The position numbers and the translations under genes were made by a program. Source: Acidimicrobiales bacterium (GTDB taxonomy: Bacteria > Actinomycetota > Acidimicrobiia > Acidimicrobiales > SZUA-35). From it: DNA of 52,477 nt. The stretch lies in NCBI GenBank assembly GCA_020629695.1, contig JAHDCV010000026.1:1-52477 (forward strand). Direction: 5' to 3'. Position 1 is the stretch's first letter; each line of letters begins with the position of its first letter. Shown piece after piece: positions 32,153-42,282 of this stretch. The notes beneath the pieces were generated by a model that was not told the origin of the DNA, searched no databases, and saw nothing but the letters and a program-made list of their open reading frames with translations.

Positions 32153-33691
32153 ATGACCACCACCGAGAGCACGGAGATCGCCGGGTCGGGCACCGAACAC
32201 GTCGATGTGATCGTCGTCGGCGCCGGCATCTCGGGAATCGGGGCCGGCTATCACCTCCAGCAGGACTGCCCCGATCGCTCCTACGTGATCCTCGAGGGCC
32301 GAGAAAACCTCGGCGGGACGTGGGACCTGTTCCGCTATCCCGGCGTGCGGTCCGACTCCGACATGCACACGCTCGGGTATTCGTTCAAACCCTGGACGGC
32401 CGAGAAGAGCATCGCCGACGGCCCGTCGATCCTCGCCTACCTGGAGGAGACCGCGGCGGAGTTCGGGATCGACCAGCACATCCGGTACCGGCAGATGGTG
32501 CGGACGGCCTCCTGGTCGAGCGAAGACGCACGTTGGCGGCTCCGGATCGACGACGAGGCCACCGGCCGCCCGGTCGAGATGACCTGCCAGTTCCTCTTCA
32601 TGTGCGCCGGCTACTACTCCTATCGGGGCGGCCACACACCCGACATTCCCGGTCTCGAGACCTTCGACGGGCCGGTCATCCACCCGCAGGCGTGGCCCGA
32701 AGACCTCGACTACTCGGGTCGACGAGTGGCCGTGATCGGATCGGGCGCCACCGCCATGACGCTCGTGCCGGCCATGGCCGGCACGGCAGCTCACGTGACG
32801 ATGGTCCAACGCTCGCCCACCTACGTGGTCTCCCGTCCCGACGTCGACCCGATCGATCGCCGATTGCGCTCGTTCCTGCCCGCCGAGCTGGCCTACCGGA
32901 TCGTGCGGAAGAAGAACATCGCCATGGGGCAGTTCTTCTACGGCCAAACCCGCAAGAAGCCCGAGAAGGTCGCCGAGAAACTCCTGGACGAGGCGAGGAA
33001 ACACCTGCCCGACGAGATGGTCGAGCAACACTTCACGCCGTCGTACGGACCCTGGGACCAGCGACTCTGCCTGGTTCCCAACGGCGACCTGTTCGAGTCA
33101 CTCACCAACGGGACCGCATCGGTCGTCACCGGCACGATCGACACGGTCACCCCCGGGGGAATCCGGATGGACGACGGCAACCACGTCGACGCCGACGTCA
33201 TCATCACCGCCACCGGCCTGCAGCTGGTTTCACTCGGCCACGTCGAGCTCTCCGTCGACGGCGAGACGATCGACTTCGCTGAGACCTGGAGCTACAAGGG
33301 GCTGGCCTATTCCGACGTCCCGAACCTCGTGTCGTCGTTCGGCTACATCAACGCATCGTGGACCCTGCGCGCCGACATCACCTGCGGCTTCGTGACCCGC
33401 CTCCTGAACCATCTCCGCGACACCGGCACCTCCACCGCGACGCCCCGGCTCCGGCCGAGCGATCGATCGATGACCCCCCGCCCATGGATCGATGACTTCT
33501 CTGCCGGCTACATCCAGCGCATGCTCCCGATGTTGCCGAAGCAGGGAGATCGAGCCCCATGGCTCAATCCGCAGCGCTACGACGCCGATCGCCGCCTCAT
33601 CGTCGACGAGCCGGTCGACGACGGTGTCATGATCTTCAGTGGAACCGCGTCGGCCCGGTCGGCGCGGTCGGTTGCCACGGCGGACGTGTGA
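32153..33691 (+). CDS. Baeyer-Villiger monooxygenase, EthA-like, FAD/NADPH
   Basis: A 512-residue flavin monooxygenase that would insert oxygen next to a carbonyl (or oxidise a sulphur or nitrogen) using NADPH and O2. The FAD fold is VDVIVVGAGISGIGAGYHLQ (about 17-36), the family fingerprint FxGxxxHxxxWP is exact at 171-182 (FDGPVIHPQAWP), and the NADPH fold is RRVAVIGSGATAMTLVPA (about 190-207). The middle region RKPEKVAEKLLDEARKHLPDEM... and GPWDQRLCLVPNGDLF follow the EthA-type sequences. It is divergent from the kinase-like gene by 102 bases. Its stop overlaps the start of the MFS gene (GTGA), so the two form an operon; the exporter may handle the product or substrate. Confidence 0.92.
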   Translation: MTTTESTEIAGSGTEHVDVIVVGAGISGIGAGYHLQQDCPDRSYVILEGRENLGGTWDLFRYPGVRSDSDMHTLGYSFKPWTAEKSIADGPSILAYLEETAAEFGIDQHIRYRQMVRTASWSSEDARWRLRIDDEATGRPVEMTCQFLFMCAGYYSYRGGHTPDIPGLETFDGPVIHPQAWPEDLDYSGRRVAVIGSGATAMTLVPAMAGTAAHVTMVQRSPTYVVSRPDVDPIDRRLRSFLPAELAYRIVRKKNIAMGQFFYGQTRKKPEKVAEKLLDEARKHLPDEMVEQHFTPSYGPWDQRLCLVPNGDLFESLTNGTASVVTGTIDTVTPGGIRMDDGNHVDADVIITATGLQLVSLGHVELSVDGETIDFAETWSYKGLAYSDVPNLVSSFGYINASWTLRADITCGFVTRLLNHLRDTGTSTATPRLRPSDRSMTPRPWIDDFSAGYIQRMLPMLPKQGDRAPWLNPQRYDADRRLIVDEPVDDGVMIFSGTASARSARSVATADV

Positions 33692-35094
33692 CGGCGGCAC
33701 AACAGGCCACAGCGCCGGAGATTCCTCGGCGGTCCTGGCAGACCCTCGCCATCACCTCGATGGTGGGCTTCATGGTCTCGATGGAGATCACGATCATCGC
33801 GTTGGCATTGCCCGACATCCGCGATGCGTTCCCGGATGCGACCGAATCGCTGCTGTCCTGGGTCATCACGACCTACAACATCGGCGTCGCCTCGCTCCTC
33901 CTGCTCGCCGGGTGGGCGGCGGATCGCTACGGACGCAAGAAGATCTTCCTGTGGGGCCTGCTCATCTTCCTGGTCGGCTCGACGCTGTCGGGTCTGTCGC
34001 AGAGCGCCACGCAGCTCATCGTCGCGCGGGGCATCCAGTCGGTGGGCGGGGCGCTCCAGTTCCCTGCCGGTCTCGCCCTGCTCCTGCCGGCCTTCCCGAT
34101 CGAACGCCGCGGCATGGCGATCGGTATCTGGGGGGCGATGGGTGGACTCGCCGCAGCCCTCGGACCTCCCCTCGGTGGTCTGCTGGTGGGTGCGTTCAAC
34201 TGGCGGGCGGTCTTCCTCGTCAACGTGCCGGTCGCGGCATTCGCCGTGATCGCCGGGCGCTCGTGGCTCACCGAGTCCACCTCGGATGACGTTCCCGATC
34301 GGGTCGATCCGATCTCGGTGCCCTTGGCGTCGCTCGGCGTCGGCGCCATCATCTTCGGCATCGTGCAGAGCGAGAGCTGGGGACTCGCCGACGTCCGAAT
34401 CCTGGGCGCCTTCGTGCTGGGACTCGTCCTGATCGCCGTGTTCGTGCACCGATCCCGAACCCACCCCCGGCCGCTGTTCGACCTCGGGCTCTTCCGCTTG
34501 CCGAGCTACGCCCTCGGCAATCTCGGCACGATCTTCTTCGTCGTTGCGTTCTTCTCGTTCTTCGTCCCGTTCCCCACGTTCGTTCAGGGCACGTGGGACT
34601 ACTCGGTGATCCGCACCGGCCTGGCGATCGCGCCCGGCCCACTGCTGGCCACAGTGCTCTCCCCCGTGCTCGGGAACCTGGCCGACCGCGTCGGTCCCGG
34701 CGTCATCCTGGCGGTCGGCGGCGTGGCGGGTGCCGCCTCGATGGCCTGGCATCTCGCCTTCATCGGGACCGACCCCGACTGGCTCGTCGGTCTGCTCCCC
34801 GGTGCACTCCTCCTCGGCGTCGCCGCCGGAGCGTCCTTCGCGATGTCGGTCTCGGCGGTGATGCGCGACGTCGGTCCGACGCGGTTCGGCATGGCGGGCG
34901 CGGCCCGGACCACGATCTTCCAGCTCGGAGTCGCGCTCGCCATCGCGCTCGCCGTGGCCATCGTCGGCCGGCCCGAGGCGGGTCGGGTCGCGTTGGAGGC
35001 GTCGCGACGCGGGTGGTGGCTCGCACTCGGCTGCTTCGCCGCGCAGGCGCTGATCTTCGGGGTCTTCTTCCCCCGGGGCAACGCAGAACGCTGA
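33688..35094 (+). CDS. MFS drug-exporter-like transporter (DHA2/EmrB type)
   Basis: A 468-residue membrane transporter. It has many hydrophobic helices (14 would fit the length), beginning with LAITSMVGFMVSMEITIIALALPDIRDAF and WVITTYNIGVASLLLLAGWAADRYGRKKIFL, the DHA2-family signature with GxLaDRxGrkk. The start is the GTG at 33688, which forms a four-base overlap with the monooxygenase stop; a longer in-frame ATG upstream would lie within that gene. It ends fourteen bases from the convergent glutathione peroxidase gene. Export of a hydrophobic compound modified by the monooxygenase is a reasonable inference, not shown. Confidence 0.88.
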   Translation: MTAAQQATAPEIPRRSWQTLAITSMVGFMVSMEITIIALALPDIRDAFPDATESLLSWVITTYNIGVASLLLLAGWAADRYGRKKIFLWGLLIFLVGSTLSGLSQSATQLIVARGIQSVGGALQFPAGLALLLPAFPIERRGMAIGIWGAMGGLAAALGPPLGGLLVGAFNWRAVFLVNVPVAAFAVIAGRSWLTESTSDDVPDRVDPISVPLASLGVGAIIFGIVQSESWGLADVRILGAFVLGLVLIAVFVHRSRTHPRPLFDLGLFRLPSYALGNLGTIFFVVAFFSFFVPFPTFVQGTWDYSVIRTGLAIAPGPLLATVLSPVLGNLADRVGPGVILAVGGVAGAASMAWHLAFIGTDPDWLVGLLPGALLLGVAAGASFAMSVSAVMRDVGPTRFGMAGAARTTIFQLGVALAIALAVAIVGRPEAGRVALEASRRGWWLALGCFAAQALIFGVFFPRGNAER

Positions 35095-35108
35095 CCCGGG
35101 GGAACGAC

Positions 35109-35585
35109 TCAGCCGAGCAGCGTGGGAATCTGCTCGGCGATGTCTTCGGGTGAGGTCATCGGCTCGAAGCGTGCGAGCACCTCGCCGTCGCCGGACACCA
35201 GGAACTTGGTGAAGTTCCAGGCGATGTCGCTCGACTCGCCCTCACCGGGCTGTTCGGACTTGAGCCACTGGTACAGCTCGCAGGCGCCGTCTCCGTTCAC
35301 CTCGATCTTCGAGAACATCGGGAAGTCGATGTCGAAGTTGTCGGTGACGAACGCCTTGATCTCGGCCTCGGGCTTCGGCTCCTGCTCACCGAACTGGTTG
35401 CAGGGGAAACCGAGCACCGTGACGCCGTTGTCGTCGTGATGAAGCGTACGCAGACCTGCGTACTGGGGCGTGAGGCCTCAATAGGAGGCGACGTTGACGA
35501 CGAGGCAGGCGGCCCCCGCATACTGCGAGAACGCGATCGGATCGCCGTCGATGGAGGTCATCGTCAGATCGTGGAATCGGGTCAT
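35109..35585 (-). CDS. Glutathione peroxidase family selenoprotein (UGA read as selenocysteine)
   Basis: The reading frame is 158 residues, the usual GPx size, only if a TGA at codon 36 is read as an amino acid. Its translation runs VNVASY-U-GLTPQYAGL, exactly the place of the catalytic Cys/Sec in the family (VNVASxC/U-G). Further conserved motifs are GFPCNQFGEQEP (Gln68) and IAWNFTKF (Trp123, Asn124), completing the catalytic tetrad Sec36-Gln68-Trp123-Asn124. A hairpin like known bacterial SECIS elements lies just downstream of the TGA. The gene starts at ATG 35585 (MTRFHDLTMTSIDGDP). It reduces peroxides using thiols, probably thioredoxin or mycothiol-linked in an actinobacterium. Gene callers would split it into two pieces. 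It needs selA, selB, selC and selD elsewhere. Confidence 0.88.
35446..35463 (-). promoter_or_regulatory. Bacterial SECIS-type hairpin for the glutathione peroxidase
   Basis: On the mRNA strand a perfect stem GTACGCA-GGTC-TGCGTAC starts 15 bases after the UGA (35478-35480). The loop is GGUC, and its inner part GCAGGUCUGC matches what I recall of the apical part of the E. coli fdhF SECIS. The codons across it (GCA, GGT, CGT, CTT) are rarer than this GC-rich gene would normally use, suggesting selection on RNA structure. Bacterial SECIS elements lie within the coding region directly after the Sec codon and recruit SelB, as here. Confidence 0.8.
35478..35480 (-). other. In-frame UGA, selenocysteine codon 36 of glutathione peroxidase
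   Basis: TGA stands exactly where the family has its catalytic Cys or Sec, with the reading frame continuing 122 codons beyond it to the normal stop. One base change (TGC to TGA) would also explain it, but the downstream hairpin makes recoding the better reading. The same TGA serves as stop for the upstream 35 codons if not recoded. Confidence 0.85.
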
Positions 35586-35682
35586 GTCGGCGCACCGTAC
35601 CCCACCGGCGAAATCCTCAGCGCGACCGACGTCCAGCGACTCGCCTTCGAGCGAATTCGAGCATGCACCCGAGACCGCTACC

Positions 35683-36504
35683 GTGCCGCCGGTGCCCTCC
35701 ACCTCACGCGACTTCCTCGGACTCGTCGACACCGCCGACGATCGCACCGAGATGCTGCTCACCTCGGCCAACACCGGCGGAGGTGAGTCGCTGTTCGGTG
35801 GCGCCGGGCTGGGAGCCGCCGTTCTCCTCGCCGAGGAACGGGCCGGCCGGCCGGCCATCTGGATGACGACGCAGTTCATCTCGCTCACCCGACGGAACGA
35901 GGTGATGCGGTTCCGGTGTGACACGCCGGCGACCGGTCGCACCATGACGCAGGTCCAGGTGCACGCCGAGGTCGACGGGCGGCTCGTGATGTCCGGCATG
36001 GGCGCATGTGGAGAGCGGCCCGAACATCATCGGACCGCCCAGCTCCGCCCACCGGACGCGCCGGGCCCCGAAGCGTCCGAAGCCGTCGTGCGGGATCCCG
36101 ACGACACGTCCGCCCTGCACCACCTCGTCGACACCCGGGTCGCCCGAGGCATGTTCGGGTTCACCGAGACCGGCACGCCGTCGGGCGACGAACGTTCGTG
36201 GATCTGGTGCCGCATGCCCACGGTCGACCTCGACGCCGCCGTACTGGCGATGCTCGCCGACTACATGCCCTCGGTGCTCGGCAACGCCGTGGCGGATCGC
36301 GTGTGGTGCTCCTCGATCGACAACACCATCCGCTTCGCCGATCCGGTCGATGATCCGGCGGGCTGGGTGTTGCTCGAGAACTCGGCGGAGTTCGTCGGCA
36401 ACGGATTCGGCATCGGCCGGTGCCGGATGTGGAGCGAGTCGGGACGACTGCTCGCCACCGCTTCGCAGTCGATGTCCGTCCGCCTGCCGCCACCCGGCGC
36501 CTGA
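35683..36504 (+). CDS. Acyl-CoA thioesterase, TesB-like double hotdog protein
   Basis: A 273-residue product with two hotdog halves. The first contains GGESLFGGAGLGAAVLLAEERAGRPAIWMTTQFISLTRRNEVMRFRCDTPATGRTMTQVQVHAEVDGR and the second ADRVWCSSIDNTIRFADPVDDPAGWVLLENSAEFVGNGFGIGRCRMWSESGRLLATASQSMSVRL, the TesB-type arrangement with thioesterase activity toward acyl-CoA. The start is uncertain: GTG 35683 or GTG 35692 (VPSTSRDFL); neither has a ribosome-binding site. The gene is divergent from the glutathione peroxidase and precedes the DUF3179 gene by 37 bases, so it may be co-transcribed with it. Substrate unknown. Confidence 0.8.
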   Translation: MPPVPSTSRDFLGLVDTADDRTEMLLTSANTGGGESLFGGAGLGAAVLLAEERAGRPAIWMTTQFISLTRRNEVMRFRCDTPATGRTMTQVQVHAEVDGRLVMSGMGACGERPEHHRTAQLRPPDAPGPEASEAVVRDPDDTSALHHLVDTRVARGMFGFTETGTPSGDERSWIWCRMPTVDLDAAVLAMLADYMPSVLGNAVADRVWCSSIDNTIRFADPVDDPAGWVLLENSAEFVGNGFGIGRCRMWSESGRLLATASQSMSVRLPPPGA

Positions 36505-36541
36505 TCGGGAAGACCACCGTCGTGTCGGCGGTTCCGAGCGG

Positions 36542-37756
36542 GTGACTGCTCGGATCGCTGCGCTCGCCATCGGTACCGCTCTGCTGGCGACCGCGTGCGC
36601 GGACGCGGGCGACCCGTTGCAGACCACGCAGCCGACCACTCCCCTCGAGTACCTGGACGGCCCGACACGGGCCTTCCTCCGCCAGATGAACGAGCCCCGC
36701 CCGGTGGACAACTCCGCGATGCCGCCGCGGCACTGGGACCCGGAACGCTTCCCCGAGACGCTCGTCGTCCGCACCGAGATCGTGCCGGGCGGTCCGCCAC
36801 CTGACGGGATCCCACCGATCGACGAGCCGGTCCATCTCGGCCAGGACTCGATCGACTGGCTCGACGAGCGGGAGGCGGTCATCGTCGTCTCCGCCGGTGG
36901 GGAGACCCGGATCTATCCCGTCCAGGTGCTGATCTGGCACGAGATCGTGAACGACGAGCTCGGCGGTCGACCCGTCACCGTCACCTACTGCCCACTCTGC
37001 AACTCGGCGGTGGTCTTCGATCGTGAGATCGACGGCGACGTCCTGGACTTCGGCACGTCGGGTTACCTCTACCAGTCCTCGCTCGTGATGTACGACCGCC
37101 AGACCGAGTCCCTCTGGACCCACTTCGACGGGCGTGCCGTCGTCGGGACACGGATCGGCGACGAGCTCGACCTGCTCCCTGCGACCACGATGTCGTGGGC
37201 GGACGCCCGTGGGGCGTTTCCGAACGCGACCGTGCTGGGCCGCGATGTCGTCGACCCGAAGCCGTACGGACAGAACCGGTATGCCGGCTACGACCAGAGC
37301 GAGCGGCCCCTGTCGGGCTGGTTCACGAACCGCGAGGTCTCCGAGGACCTCCCGCTCATGGGTCGGGTCGTGGGCGTGCGACGCGGCGACCCCGTGGCGA
37401 TCCCGCTCGATCTCCTCCGGCCCGCACGAGTCCTGATGGTGGACGACGGCCGGCCGCTGGTGGTCTTCTGGCAGCCCGGCACGAACTCACCCCTGCAGGA
37501 CGACGAGATCGCCGGCGGCGACGACATCGGATCGACGGGCGTCTACGTCCCGCAGCACGAGGGGTCGACACTCACCTTCGTGGCGACGGCCGATGCGATC
37601 GTCGACGAGCAGACCGGGTCGAGCTGGACAGCGGCGGGCGTCGCGGTCGACGGCCCGCTGGTCGGGTCCCGACTCGAGCCGGTCGAGCACCTCGACACCT
37701 TCTGGTTCGCCTGGGCGACGTTCGAACCGGCGACGCAGGTGGTCACCGGTCCTTGA
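36542..37756 (+). CDS. DUF3179 domain-containing lipoprotein
   Basis: A 404-residue protein. It starts with a signal peptide ending in a lipobox-like LLATACADAG, so it is probably anchored to the outer face of the membrane. The body shows the DUF3179 family: YPVQVLIWHEIVNDELGGRPVTVTYCPLCNSAVVFDR, then SLWTHFDGRAVVGTRIGDELDLLPATTMSWADARGAFPNATVL. The paired cysteines in CPLC are the family's most conserved residues and suggest metal or redox chemistry, but the function of DUF3179 proteins is not established. The start is GTG 36542, preceded by GAGCGG. The later part (SPLQDDEIAGGDDIGSTGVYVPQ) is also family-typical. It ends 13 bases from the convergent crotonase gene. Confidence 0.85.
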   Translation: MTARIAALAIGTALLATACADAGDPLQTTQPTTPLEYLDGPTRAFLRQMNEPRPVDNSAMPPRHWDPERFPETLVVRTEIVPGGPPPDGIPPIDEPVHLGQDSIDWLDEREAVIVVSAGGETRIYPVQVLIWHEIVNDELGGRPVTVTYCPLCNSAVVFDREIDGDVLDFGTSGYLYQSSLVMYDRQTESLWTHFDGRAVVGTRIGDELDLLPATTMSWADARGAFPNATVLGRDVVDPKPYGQNRYAGYDQSERPLSGWFTNREVSEDLPLMGRVVGVRRGDPVAIPLDLLRPARVLMVDDGRPLVVFWQPGTNSPLQDDEIAGGDDIGSTGVYVPQHEGSTLTFVATADAIVDEQTGSSWTAAGVAVDGPLVGSRLEPVEHLDTFWFAWATFEPATQVVTGP

Positions 37757-37769
37757 GCCGGGGCGCCGC

Positions 37770-38612
37770 TCAGAGACCGTCGGAGAGCGGCCAGAGGTCG
37801 GGGAAGTCGGGCTGGCGTTTCTCCATCTGGGAGGCGAACGCCTCCGCCATGTCGTCCGTGTCGAAGTGTGCGGCGTTCCAGTTGGCGATGAACTCGAGAC
37901 CGTCGGCGACCGTGTGGTCGCGGGTGTAGTGCATCGTCTGCTTCGTTCCCCAGATCGCCATCGGCGACTTGGCCGCGATCTCGGTCGCGATCTCCATCAC
38001 GCCGTCGAGAAGCGCGTCTCGATCGTGAAAGATCTTGTTGACGAACCCCGCCGCCATCGCTTCCTCTGCGCTCCAGCGGCGCCCGGTGTAGGCGAGCTCG
38101 CGCACAACACCCTCGGGCACGAGCTTCGGCATCCGCTGGAGAGTTCCGACATCGGCGGTCATCCCGATGTTGATCTCGGCGATCGAGAAGTAGGCGTCCT
38201 CGGTGGCGTACCGCATGTCTGCCGCCGAGACCATGTCGATCGCGCCACCGACGCACGCGCCCTGGATCGCACAGAGAACCGGGACCCGGGCCCGCTCGAG
38301 CGAGGTGAAGGTGTCCTGCAGCTTCATCGCCGTCGAGCGGAACCGCTCGTTCCGACGGCTGCGGTGACCGGACGCACCGGGCCGGATGTCGTCATTGCCG
38401 GCGAAGACCGACAGGTCCATCCCCGAGCAGTAGTGCCGCCCCTCGGCCTCGAGCACGATCACCCGGACGTCGCCGGAGGCCGACATGCCGTCCACGATCT
38501 CGGGTAGCTCCCGCCAGAACGAGGCGATCATGGAGTTGGCCTTCTCGGGGCGGTTCATCCGGATGCGGCCGATCTTGTCGACGACCGTCACGTCGAAACA
38601 CTCGTATCCCAT
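37770..38612 (-). CDS. Enoyl-CoA hydratase/isomerase family, probable dienoyl-CoA isomerase
   Basis: A 280-residue crotonase-fold protein. The oxyanion-hole region is CSGMDLSVF and GACVGGAIDM. Acidic residues at D126, E146 and D154 (in GAIDMV, IAEINIG and TADVGTLQR) have the same spacing as the three catalytic acids of mammalian delta3,5-delta2,4-dienoyl-CoA isomerase (ECH1; D176, E196, D204), and the stretch DMRYATEDAYFSIAEINIGMTADVGTLQRMPK parallels it closely. I therefore favour that activity, acting in degradation of odd-position unsaturated fatty acids, over hydratase activity. ATG 38612 begins the usual start (MGYECFDVTVVDKIGRIRMNRPEKANSM); the longer in-frame ATG upstream adds a non-conserved, Arg-rich part. 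It is divergent from the nitroreductase gene across 110 bases. Confidence 0.87.
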   Translation of the reverse strand: MGYECFDVTVVDKIGRIRMNRPEKANSMIASFWRELPEIVDGMSASGDVRVIVLEAEGRHYCSGMDLSVFAGNDDIRPGASGHRSRRNERFRSTAMKLQDTFTSLERARVPVLCAIQGACVGGAIDMVSAADMRYATEDAYFSIAEINIGMTADVGTLQRMPKLVPEGVVRELAYTGRRWSAEEAMAAGFVNKIFHDRDALLDGVMEIATEIAAKSPMAIWGTKQTMHYTRDHTVADGLEFIANWNAAHFDTDDMAEAFASQMEKRQPDFPDLWPLSDGL

Positions 38613-38722
38613 GCGTGCTGCTCCTCGATCGATCATCGACGCCGTGGTCTCGGCGAGCGCCGACAGTGTCGCCCCCCGGCCGCAACTTGAGCAAGCACGC
38701 CGACACTGCGAGGCTCGGCGCC

Positions 38723-39385
38723 ATGGAGTTCGACCACGCACAGACCGACGCCCTGCTCTCGACGACGAGGGCGGTCCGAAAGCGGCTCGACTTCGAGCGG
38801 GAGGTCCCGGACGACGTCCTGCTCGAGTGTCTCCAGCTCGCCGTGCAGGCCCCGACGGGCTCGAACCGCCAGGGCTGGCGGTGGCTGGTGATCCGGGACG
38901 CCGAGAAGAAGGCGGCGCTCGCCGACCTCTACCGGCAGGCCGGCGGCGAGTATCTCGCCGCTGCAGCCGCGGACGCCGCCGATGGCTCGCAGACCGGCCG
39001 GGTCCTCGACTCGGCGAACTTCCTGGCCCAGAACCTCGAGAACGTGCCGGTCTTCGTCATCCCGATGATCATCGGACGCCTCGACGACGCCGTCGAGCAG
39101 GGGGCGAACATCACCAACGCCGCGGCCGGCCTGATGGGTTCGATCATCCCGGCCATGTGGTCGTTCCAGCTGGCGCTCCGCAGCCGTGGGCTCGGGTCGT
39201 GCTACACGACCCTGCATCTCGGGCTCGAGAAGCAGGCTGCCGACATCCTCGGGATCCCCGACCACATGTCGCAGGCCGGGCTGCTCCCGGTCGCCTACAC
39301 CAAGGGAACCGACTTCAAGCCGGCGAAGCGGCCGCCGGTCTCCGAGATCACCTACCTCGACAGCTACAAGAACCCGATCGTCTGA
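38723..39385 (+). CDS. Nitroreductase family FMN oxidoreductase
   Basis: A 220-residue NAD(P)H-dependent flavoprotein of the nitroreductase family. FMN-binding landmarks are TTRAVRKRLDFEREVPDDVLLECLQLAVQAPTGSNRQGWRWLV at the N-terminus and LRSRGLGSCYTTLHLGLEKQAADILGIPDHMSQAGLLPVAYT for the C-terminal half. The substrate (nitroaromatic, quinone or a flavin-bound intermediate) is not evident. It starts at ATG 38723; upstream codons of the frame are not family-like. The gene converges on the FAD oxidoreductase gene with a strong hairpin between them, and its divergent neighbour is the dienoyl-CoA isomerase gene. Confidence 0.88.
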   Translation: MEFDHAQTDALLSTTRAVRKRLDFEREVPDDVLLECLQLAVQAPTGSNRQGWRWLVIRDAEKKAALADLYRQAGGEYLAAAAADAADGSQTGRVLDSANFLAQNLENVPVFVIPMIIGRLDDAVEQGANITNAAAGLMGSIIPAMWSFQLALRSRGLGSCYTTLHLGLEKQAADILGIPDHMSQAGLLPVAYTKGTDFKPAKRPPVSEITYLDSYKNPIV

Positions 39386-39423
39386 CCGACCGACGCCGGT
39401 GCTCGCCGGACCTCGCGCACATC

Positions 39424-39442
39424 GCTGACGCGCCGCGTCAGC
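39424..39442. terminator. Strong hairpin between two convergent genes, probable bidirectional terminator
   Basis: A perfect 8-bp stem with a 3-base loop, GCTGACGC-GCC-GCGTCAGC, lies in the 73-base gap between the ends of the nitroreductase and FAD oxidoreductase genes. It is symmetrical, so it forms in RNA of either direction. No U-tract follows on either strand, so this may be a high-GC terminator or a 3'-end stabiliser. Confidence 0.6.
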
Positions 39443-39458
39443 TCGGCCGCGGAGTTCG

Positions 39459-40784
39459 CTACTCCTCGATGCCGGCGCGGTAGCGGCGCCAGCGGAGATT
39501 GGCCCGCACCCCGAGGGAGTTGAACGGCTCGGGGAAGTTCCGGCTGGGCCGGCCCTTGGCGAGCATGAGGTCGAGGTGTTCCGACGGGGCGCCGTGCATC
39601 GAGTCGGCGAGCAACATGCCACAGACGGTGCCCCGCACGATCCCGACCCCGTTGTGCACGATCGAGCCCTGTACGCCCGGCCGGAGCTCGCCGAACGCCG
39701 GTTGGCCGTTCCGACTCAGGCTCACCGGCCCGCCCCAGGTGAACTCGAACGGCGTGCCGGCGACGCTCGGGAAACGACGATCGAATGACCGGCGGTGTGT
39801 CCGCTCCGCCGTGGCGAGCCAGCGGCCGTCGTGGCGCGAGCGTCGGCTGAACGAGAAGATGTTCCGTACGACGATCCGACGCTCCCGGCCGAGCTTCCGG
39901 ACGGTCGTGCCGGCCCCCTCCGCAGCGATGAGCCCCCAGGTGTCGTCGCCGCCGATCGTCGCCCACTCGTCGTCGTCGAGTTGGCGCGTCATCGACCCCC
40001 ACGTCATCAAGGGAATGGTGTGCTTGCGGTAGAAGCCGAAACCGGGGCCGTACCCGTTCGTGGCCAGGACGAGACTGGGCGTGCGAACGGTCCCCTGCGT
40101 GGTGCGGACCGTGTGGGGTGGTCCGTAGTCCACGTCCATCACTGCCGATCGCTCATGCACCGCGACGTTCCCGGGCAACGCCGCGGCGATCCCCCGCAAC
40201 AGACCCGCCGGCTGCACGAGCACGGTGCCCGGCGTGTGCAACGCCCGGGTCCAGAAGTCGGTCCCGAGGTGCTCGACGGTCGCCGACCGGTCCCACGACG
40301 TGTGCGGCTGGCCCATGGTGTCGAGCATCGAGGCGAACTCGTCGAGATGGTGCTCACCTCTCGGGGTCGCCGCACCGTGGACCTTGCCGACGTCGTCCCA
40401 GAAGTCACCGAGGTCGTGCTCCTCGACGAGCCGCTGCAGCGCACGTTGACCGTGGGTGTTCATGGCCATCTGACGGAGCTCCCGCTCGACGTCCTCCGGA
40501 GCGAACGAACCAGCCCGGATGTCGTGGGTCATGTCGATGGCGAAGCCCGAGGAGCGGCCGCCGGCGGAGTTCCCGACGAGGTCGGCGTCGAGCACGACGA
40601 TCGTCGCCGCCGGGTCGAGCTCGGCGAGCCGACGAGCCGCGGCGAGGCCGGTCCACGACGCACCGACCACCACGTGATCGACGGTCTCCTCGCCCCGGAA
40701 CACGTCCGGCTCGGGAAGCGGACCGAGGATCTCCAACCAGCCGTTGCGACGATCGGTCCGGGGCTGATGATCGACGGTGGGCAT
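39459..40784 (-). CDS. FAD-dependent oxidoreductase of the DAO family (PuuB/OrdL-like)
   Basis: A 441-residue flavoenzyme, last gene of the five-gene minus-strand operon. The FAD fold is VDHVVVGASWTGLAAARRLAELDPAATIVVLDADLVGNSAGGRSSGF near the start; NSAGGRSSGF is similar to the N-(S/A)-GR-SGF motif of gamma-glutamylputrescine oxidase-type enzymes. The flavin-facing C-terminal part contains FTWGGPVSLSRNGQPAFGEL and GSIVHNGVGIVRGTVCGMLLADS. It probably oxidises an amine or imino acid, feeding the aldehyde dehydrogenase encoded just upstream. ATG 40784 follows the stop of that gene by four bases, so the two are coupled. The exact substrate is unknown. Confidence 0.85.
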   Translation of the reverse strand: MPTVDHQPRTDRRNGWLEILGPLPEPDVFRGEETVDHVVVGASWTGLAAARRLAELDPAATIVVLDADLVGNSAGGRSSGFAIDMTHDIRAGSFAPEDVERELRQMAMNTHGQRALQRLVEEHDLGDFWDDVGKVHGAATPRGEHHLDEFASMLDTMGQPHTSWDRSATVEHLGTDFWTRALHTPGTVLVQPAGLLRGIAAALPGNVAVHERSAVMDVDYGPPHTVRTTQGTVRTPSLVLATNGYGPGFGFYRKHTIPLMTWGSMTRQLDDDEWATIGGDDTWGLIAAEGAGTTVRKLGRERRIVVRNIFSFSRRSRHDGRWLATAERTHRRSFDRRFPSVAGTPFEFTWGGPVSLSRNGQPAFGELRPGVQGSIVHNGVGIVRGTVCGMLLADSMHGAPSEHLDLMLAKGRPSRNFPEPFNSLGVRANLRWRRYRAGIEE

Positions 40785-40788
40785 CAGG

Positions 40789-42282
40789 TCACGACGCCCC
40801 GAGATCGAGCCACACCGTCTTGGTCTCGGTGTACTGCTCGTGGCTGGCGAGCCCGTTGTCCCGTCCCCCGAAGCCCGAGAGACCGTACCCACCGAACGGT
40901 GTGGCGGCGTTGCCCTCGGAGTAGCTGTTCACGCTGACGGTGCCGGCGCGGAGTCGAGCAGCAGCGAGATGGGCGGTACGGACGTTCGAGGTGAAGACCG
41001 AGGCGTGCAGCCCGTAGGGCGTGGCGTTGGCCAGCGCGATCGCTTCGTCGGCGTGATCGAAGCGGGTGACGGCGAGGATCGGTCCGAAGACCTCGTCGCG
41101 GGCCAGCTCGTCGTCGGGCGCGACCTCATCGAAGACGGTCGGCTCCATGAACCAACCACCGCTCGCTTCCCGGAGCCGCCGTCCGCCGCGTCGCAGCACG
41201 GCTCCCCCGGCGACCGCTCGTTCGACATAGCCGAGCATCCGTTCGAGCTGGGCCTCGGAGATGATGGCGCCCACTCGTGTCTCGGGATCGAGCGGATCGC
41301 CGACAACCCATTCGTGCAGGACCTCGTCCATGCGTGACAGCAGGTCGTCGGCCAACGAGCGATGCACCAGCAGACGGGAGTTGGCGGAACAGTTCTGACC
41401 GGCGTTCCAGACGATCGCCTCACACGCAGCCGCGGCCACGGCGTCGAGGTCCTCGGCGTCGGGCATCACGACCATCGGCGACTTGCCACCACACTCCAGC
41501 AGCACGCGCTTCAGGTTCGAGTCGGCCGAGTAGCGGAGGAACATGCGGCCCACATCGGTCGATCCGGTGAACGCGACGCAGTCGACGTCGGGGTGTTCAC
41601 CGAGGGCTCGGCCCGTGATCTCGCCCGGGCCGCTCACGATGTTGAGCACACCATCGGGGATGCCGGCCTCGGATGCGAGCTCGCCCAGCCGGAGCGTCGA
41701 CATCGAGGTCTCCTCGGCCGGCTTCAGCACGAGCGCGTTGCCGGTGGCCAGCGCCGGCCCGATCTTCCAGGCCGCCATCATGAGCGGATAGTTCCAGGGC
41801 AACACCGCTCCGACCACGCCGATCGGCTCCCGCACGATCATGGCGACGGTGCCGGGACCCGATGGCGCCACCTGGTCGTGCCACTTGTCGGCCATCTCGG
41901 CGTGCCAGCGGAGACAGGCCACCGTCTCCGGCAGATCGATCGTGGAGGTGTCGTGGATCGGCTTGCCGGACTCGAGCGTCTCGAGCAGCGCGAGCTCGTC
42001 CGCATGGGCCTCGACGAGTGAGGCGAATCGGAGGAGGAGGCGCCGTCGTTCGGTCGGGTCGAGGCTCGTCCACGGCCCATCGGTGCATGCCCGCCGGGCG
42101 GCGCGAACCGCGGCGTCGACATCGGCGGGACCGGCGACGGCGACCTCGGCCAGTGTCTGGCCGGTCGCCGGGTCGACGGTCGGCATGGTCGCGCCATCGG
42201 CGGCCGGCACTGCGGACCCGCCGATCCACAACGTCGTCGGGCCACCGATGGCGGCGAACAGTGCCTGCGGGTCGTGGTTCAT
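40789..42282 (-). CDS. Aldehyde dehydrogenase (NAD(P)+-dependent)
   Basis: A 497-residue aldehyde dehydrogenase with all key residues: Asn164 in LPWNYP, Lys187 in LKPAE, the NAD-binding FTGSTDVGR at 238-246, the general base Glu263 in LLECGGKSP and the catalytic Cys298 in NAGQNCSANS. It oxidises an aldehyde to the acid. The ATG at 42282 overlaps the upstream gene's stop (ATGA). A longer in-frame ATG lies within that gene and lacks support. It is the fourth of five genes (LysR, MttB, DapA family, ALDH, FAD oxidoreductase). A substrate such as 2-oxoglutarate semialdehyde would fit a betaine or hydroxyproline type of pathway, but sequence alone does not fix it. Confidence 0.93.
   Translation of the reverse strand: MNHDPQALFAAIGGPTTLWIGGSAVPAADGATMPTVDPATGQTLAEVAVAGPADVDAAVRAARRACTDGPWTSLDPTERRRLLLRFASLVEAHADELALLETLESGKPIHDTSTIDLPETVACLRWHAEMADKWHDQVAPSGPGTVAMIVREPIGVVGAVLPWNYPLMMAAWKIGPALATGNALVLKPAEETSMSTLRLGELASEAGIPDGVLNIVSGPGEITGRALGEHPDVDCVAFTGSTDVGRMFLRYSADSNLKRVLLECGGKSPMVVMPDAEDLDAVAAAACEAIVWNAGQNCSANSRLLVHRSLADDLLSRMDEVLHEWVVGDPLDPETRVGAIISEAQLERMLGYVERAVAGGAVLRRGGRRLREASGGWFMEPTVFDEVAPDDELARDEVFGPILAVTRFDHADEAIALANATPYGLHASVFTSNVRTAHLAAARLRAGTVSVNSYSEGNAATPFGGYGLSGFGGRDNGLASHEQYTETKTVWLDLGAS

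Follow-up and report, generated by a model that had tools for sequence, protein, structure and literature searches.

Predicted selenocysteine (Sec) recoding and the GPx gene

An in-frame UGA interrupts a glutathione peroxidase (GPx) gene in a 52,477-nt stretch of an Acidimicrobiales genome (GCA_020629695.1, contig JAHDCV010000026.1; hereafter the window), and a hairpin with the GGUC loop of the Escherichia coli fdhF selenocysteine insertion sequence (SECIS) follows it. This raises the question whether the hairpin directs Sec insertion at the UGA, and whether its likeness to fdhF reflects a common element. The features are listed in Table 1.

Table 1 Features of the GPx locus and of other UGA-containing genes of the same genome (G000).
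Feature	Position	Strand	Basis and remarks
Sec-containing GPx gene, 158 residues, Sec36	35109..35585	minus	Translation with TGA read as U; Pfam
In-frame UGA, predicted Sec36 codon, motif NVASY-U-GLTPQY	35478..35480 (35480-35478)	minus	TGA in 72/124 and Cys codon in 52/124 distinct GPx genes
Putative bacterial SECIS hairpin GUACGCA-GGUC-UGCGUAC, 7-bp stem without bulge	35446..35463	minus	Sequence, folding, homologue pairing, covariation
Apical GGUC tetraloop; GGU is an in-frame Gly codon, +8 from Sec	35453..35456	minus	GGT in 68/72 Sec genes, GGG in the other 4
14-nt spacer from UGA to stem, outside any conserved helix	35464..35477	minus	RNAalifold
selD with in-frame TGA (GAG-U-ACK)	G000:C48:57425-58348 (L215)		Best hairpin under the loop-G rule UGACGCA-CGUGU-UGCGUCG, loop 32 nt downstream
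Formate dehydrogenase alpha-like fdhA with in-frame TGA	G000:C16:259-2127 (L235)		616 bits, under the cut-off of 666; UGUCGUC-GGUCU-GGCGACA, loop at 18 nt
ResA/AhpC-like WAxxUGC gene with TGA	G000:C65:43162-43710 (L191)		Hairpin UCUGCC-AGGUU-GGCAGG, loop at 20 nt

The translated gene scored 130.1 bits against the Pfam model GSHPx (PF00255; curated cut-off, 27), which places it in this family, and it was the sole GSHPx-family match in its genome, with one TGA inside. The UGA sits at the catalytic position of the family, in the fuller context NVASY-U-GLTPQYAGLRT, and distant GPx have Cys there. The neighbouring genes at positions 32153-40892 of the window encode a flavin monooxygenase, an MFS transporter, a DUF3179 protein, an enoyl-CoA hydratase, a nitroreductase and an FAD oxidoreductase, with no selenium gene among them. 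An acyl-CoA thioesterase frame on the opposite strand overlaps the start of the GPx gene.

Structure and uniqueness of the hairpin

A first-pass annotation of the sequence had proposed a SECIS-like hairpin with a perfect 7-bp stem and a GGUC loop, and its coordinates, sequence, stem and loop were all confirmed. Its distance of 15 bases after the UGA is correct when counted to the first stem base, which is the 15th after the UGA, whereas 14 bases lie between the two; the loop lies 21 nt downstream of the UGA. Folded alone, the 18-nt hairpin had an energy of -8.5 kcal/mol, matched by 1 of 200 shuffled sequences, and in a 42-nt context the z-score was -2.3, with 7 of 200 shuffles as good. Folding of the 60 bases after the UGA, the check suggested in that annotation, yielded the hairpin within the minimum free energy (MFE) structure but an ordinary overall energy (z = -0.33). 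Folding energy alone would therefore be weak evidence for the hairpin. RNAalifold predicted the apical hairpin only and no conserved lower stem, both for 39–60 nt after the UGA and with 30 nt upstream included, and Rfam gave no match for the window or for a 141-nt stretch at any threshold tried.

On both strands of the window this is the only GGTC loop closed by a 7-bp Watson–Crick stem, and 10 of the 1,104 TGA triplets (555 + 549) have a 7-bp/4-nt hairpin with G in the first two loop bases 16–37 nt downstream. Although GCAGGTCTGC occurs at four places in the genome, the GPx copy alone is a hairpin after an in-frame UGA. Of 396 Actinomycetota genomes, five contain the 18-mer GTACGCAGGTCTGCGTRC (one R allowed), in every case within a Sec-GPx gene found independently; it was absent from viral contigs, whose 13 GPx relatives each had TGT at the active site.

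The bSECIS limits given in PMC13188914 (Fig. 2A legend) are an apical loop of 3–9 nt, an upper stem of 4–16 bp, G in the first two loop positions (mostly as GG or GU), 16–37 nt from UGA to apical loop and an MFE of at most -7.5 kcal/mol. The hairpin falls within every one of these numerical limits: its 4-nt loop, 7-bp stem and 21-nt distance fall within the ranges, G occupies both loop positions here and in 72/72 Sec genes, and its -8.5 kcal/mol lies below the energy limit, as do 57/72 homologues on the bare 18-mer.

Comparison of Sec- and Cys-encoding homologues

A genome scan with search peptides that do not span the stem gave 80 GPx loci; one of these peptides started with a Cys codon at the active site, so that it could favour Cys genes only. 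A Pfam-model search of 296 genomes of the class added TGA matches, of which all 16 above the cut-off were read (our own and 15 fetched, two of the latter being dropped as duplicates of L020 and L073), and 30 Cys genes (L133-L162), which are the best-scoring ones fetched, all Cys, and not a random draw. Among its five TGA matches below the cut-off, four belonged to the WAxxUGC family and the remaining one was L182. The active-site motif was located in all 126 rows, leaving 124 distinct GPx genes after removal of two duplicates.

The hairpin followed the UGA strictly. All seven pairs can form in 62 of the 72 UGA genes and six in the other 10, with none below six; the best of the 52 Cys genes forms five and all others four or fewer. 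Sec homologues without a hairpin, or Cys homologues keeping it, had been named in the first-pass annotation as the observations that would speak against its proposal, and none of either kind was found among the 72 and the 52 genes, respectively. When each gene's own 42-nt MFE structure was considered, at least five hairpin pairs were present in 69/72 Sec and 0/52 Cys genes. Four of the 72 carry GGGU for GGUC plus a C-U mismatch, and six have a mismatch at the third pair. Going by record titles, Sec genes with a named source belong to Actinomycetota, Pseudomonadota and Myxococcota, and a further one is from a draft labelled Spirochaeta. In the last case (L044, on a contig labelled Spirochaeta sp.) the Sec-GPx groups with Myxococcota sequences, through misbinning or transfer.

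The UGA–hairpin association strongly supports the SECIS proposal. Perfect GC-rich stems are in general capable of other roles, such as terminator or ribosome pause, but this one lies mid-gene with no T-run after it, is tied strictly to the UGA and is lost with Sec-to-Cys change, so that such a role is extremely improbable.

Selection on codons and base pairs

Codons +5 to +10 after the Sec codon, which form the stem and loop, had relative codon entropies of 0–0.20 in Sec genes, against 0.73–0.92 in Cys genes; at all other listed columns with synonymous choice, the value in Sec genes was at least 0.39. Synonymous choice is hence frozen exactly beneath the stem, and in Sec genes only, in agreement with the RNA-level selection suggested earlier. 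The suggestion had been based on rare codons, which was borne out in part: across five genes of this genome (2,450 codons), the shares are 7.5% for GCA among Ala codons, 11% for CGT among Arg codons and 19% for GGT among Gly codons, but CAG, TAC, CTG and ACG are common. At +10, Arg is encoded in 67/72 Sec genes and Glu is the commonest residue in Cys genes (37/52), which suggests that a residue is dictated by the hairpin.

Stem positions were paired in 97.7% of cells over 61 distinct rows, compared with 33.6% in Cys genes. Compensatory changes, which were to be sought among Sec-GPx relatives, were found at two stem pairs, with both sides changed in four cells against a shuffled mean of 0.2. 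In L057 and L062 a G-C pair is replaced by A-U, which turns YAGLR into YTGLC (Ala to Thr, Arg to Cys), and L174 carries the G-U intermediate of this change; the other pair-keeping double change also alters a residue (R to H).

These data bear on a protein-level explanation, in which a QYAGLR motif needed for Sec catalysis holds the codons and the hairpin is a by-product. The Gly and Leu under the hairpin are indeed nearly fixed in Cys-GPx as well (51/52 each). Selection on the protein, however, is at odds with a synonymous freeze confined to the stem of Sec genes, and with double changes that retain a pair yet alter the residues, and we consider this explanation highly unlikely.

Phylogeny of Sec/Cys conversions

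In a quick tree, for which the Sec/Cys column and the residues encoded by the hairpin were masked, the 72 Sec genes formed one group (starred branch, 99) in which seven Cys genes were nested at three places: L027; L070 with L076-L079; and L040. A careful tree gave the same four Sec/Cys changes, at least three of them forced by starred branches, with a bootstrap that is not fully settled, and hairpin presence likewise required four changes on it. The hairpin is missing from all seven nested Cys genes. A remnant with 5/7 pairs (AUACGCAGGUCUUUGUAC, L040 1606-1644) persists in L040, whose genome still has SelB, and this gene is evidently a recent Sec-to-Cys conversion with a decaying hairpin; SelB is also retained in the L027 genome. 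Three independent Sec/Cys contrasts are too few for a sign test to be significant (p = 0.25). The nesting within an unrooted tree suggests one gain of Sec followed by three losses.

Selenium machinery and other UGA genes of the genome

The components that a bacterial SECIS requires, SelA, SelB, SelD and tRNA-Sec, are all encoded in the genome: a tRNA-Sec (67 bits, anticodon TCA), SelB (263 bits; cut-off, 242) with a SelB-wing_3 domain, SelD (351 bits), and a SelA frame directly upstream of selB that was read by eye and is unscored. Three more genes with selenoprotein-type UGA codons were found, namely selD itself, fdhA and a WAxxUGC gene (Table 1), a relative of the last scoring 252 bits with NCBIfam NF041054, under the cut-off of 300. 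WAxxUGC genes are common in the order, with matches in 46/118 genomes and a TGA in most matches.

Could the UGA simply be a true stop or a sequencing error that breaks the GPx gene? Standard gene calling would stop the frame at 35478, and ordinary gene callers likely truncate the GPx genes of the whole Sec clade at this codon. The same-codon UGA in 72 distinct genes, a frame conserved beyond it, and selA-D together with the three further UGA genes in this genome leave a broken gene with almost no probability.

Each of the four genes carries a different hairpin. For fdhA, eight TGA genes out of 27 matches were compared, and our own and the seven others that were read share a GGUCU pentaloop; for selD, hairpins were obtained for five of 11 TGA genes, the motif having missed the other six. 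Three of the four hairpins of this genome have in common an in-frame Gly codon GGU at +7 or +8. A single predicted SelB must read all four candidate elements.

Of the 30 Sec-GPx genomes searched, 27 had a SelB above the cut-off and the other three, without one, are drafts; neither of the two distant-Cys genomes searched had it. The complex of Moorella SelB with its SECIS is known. The C-terminal domain of SelB from the Sec-GPx genomes keeps the pattern of the E. coli and Moorella proteins (related structures 1wsu, 2ply and 1lva), and residues Arg580, Asp591, Thr596 and Arg598 of E. coli SelB were identical in all 30 aligned tails.

Relation to known SECIS elements

The first-pass annotation had also noted that the core matches fdhF, which held against E. 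coli MG1655, where fdhF reads UGA...GGUU-GCAGGUCUGC-ACC (GGU-U-GCA-GGUC-UGC-ACC) with its loop 18 nt after the UGA; E. coli fdnG and fdoG carry AGUC at the loop. The ten-base core GCAGGUCUGC with its GGUC tetraloop is identical in the GPx hairpin, both elements lie inside the coding region downstream of the UGA, and both are in the same register, GCA-GGU-CUG encoding Ala-Gly-Leu. In the GPx gene, however, the loop is one codon farther away (21 versus 18 nt), the stem beyond the core is different, the protein is unrelated, and the lower stem that fdhF has near its UGA lacks a conserved counterpart. According to an excerpt of PMC8659212, E. coli SelB contacts U17 and G23, and changing either is reported to abolish readthrough. 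No bulge equivalent to U17, which sits on the 5' side of the upper stem (PMC8659212, same excerpt), exists in any of the 72 GPx elements; the apical G23 and U24 in that numbering are present in the identical loop, with U24 changed to G in 4/72 homologues. The claim that formate dehydrogenase and GPx share a conserved fdhF-type element was consequently not upheld, with the bulge missing, the spacing one codon off and the other selenoprotein genes of the same genome carrying different hairpins. The nearest of these, in fdhA (G000:C16), shares with the GPx hairpin the GGUC loop bases and the in-frame Gly GGU, but has a pentaloop, a loop at 18 nt and another stem.

True kinship, in which the GPx element was copied from, or descended together with, an fdh SECIS, would account for the identical core in the same frame and for the GGUCU loop of the genome's own FdhA element. 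The divergent outer stem, the missing bulge, the one-codon offset and the unrelated flanking proteins count against such descent, as does the Gly-Leu that Cys-GPx already encode at the spot, and it appears very improbable to us. We favour instead convergence, with GGU reached separately as an in-frame Gly codon, because Ala-Gly-Leu is encoded in frame in both proteins, SelB requires a G and a U at the loop, and 51 of 52 Cys-GPx already have the Gly and the Leu. With GG in the loop and an Ala codon pairing with the Leu codon and the next base, the core GCA-GGU-CUG-C is nearly forced.

The element agrees with the bacterial SECIS consensus in section 5 of PMC13188914 in loop, stem, G positions, GG then U, spacing and energy, and is far more uniform across phyla than that review would suggest. 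The protein belongs to the same family as the Sec-containing bacterial GPx on record in a table of PMC13188914, in PMC2398784 (40 GOS sequences) and in PMC1794560 (Treponema denticola). In the excerpts of PMC1794560, PMC13188914, PMC2398784, PMC12013277, PMC8659212 and PMC10778597, we found no family-wide, near-invariant GPx hairpin and no description of the bulge-less core, the codon and residue imprint or the actinobacterial members, an absence that is no proof.

Proposed function and evolution

With the hairpin, its strict association with the UGA, the stem-preserving changes, its disappearance where Cys replaces Sec and the machinery genes of this genome all observed, we are highly confident that it is a bacterial SECIS element directing readthrough of the UGA to Sec36. 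As far as sequence can tell, this is a clearly documented new case of a known kind of signal. SelB loaded with GTP and Sec-tRNASec would use its C-terminal winged helix to bind the stem and its apical GGUC loop, and would deliver Sec to the ribosome once the UGA, which precedes the loop by 21 bases, occupies the A site, giving the full-length Sec36 protein; SelB binding, recoding in the cell and peroxidase activity are predicted on this basis. Lying within the coding sequence, the stem would fix codons and even residues (Arg at +10).

The element may have arisen through a single Sec gain in a Cys-GPx whose conserved Gly-Leu already provided GGN-CTN at the right distance. The Sec-GPx would then have spread while its element stayed almost unchanged, and reversion to Cys with decay of the hairpin would have followed in at least three lineages. 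We lean neither for nor against the broader reading that the Sec-GPx clade carries one inherited, near-frozen, bulge-less SECIS class born from Gly-Leu codons and dictating Ala at +7 and Arg at +10, with SelB reading mainly an in-frame GGU at +7/+8 without U17.

The clade offers a natural experiment on bacterial SECIS evolution, with one apparent origin, three independent losses and protein-altering compensatory changes, and the genome itself sets one SelB against four different hairpins. It becomes testable whether the U17 bulge is a general or a local (E. coli) rule of SelB recognition, and in what way codons already needed by the protein can give rise to an RNA signal.

A different SelB was considered as the cause of the GGGU loop variant and rejected, since the variant arose three times on the tree and the available SelB tails differ in no obvious way (that of L068 being cut at a contig end). 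The variant form, GUACGC-CGGGUU-GCGUAC, is carried by L019, L063, L068 and L075; its GGGU is similar to the CGGGU loops that WAxxUGC genes have in other genomes of this class.
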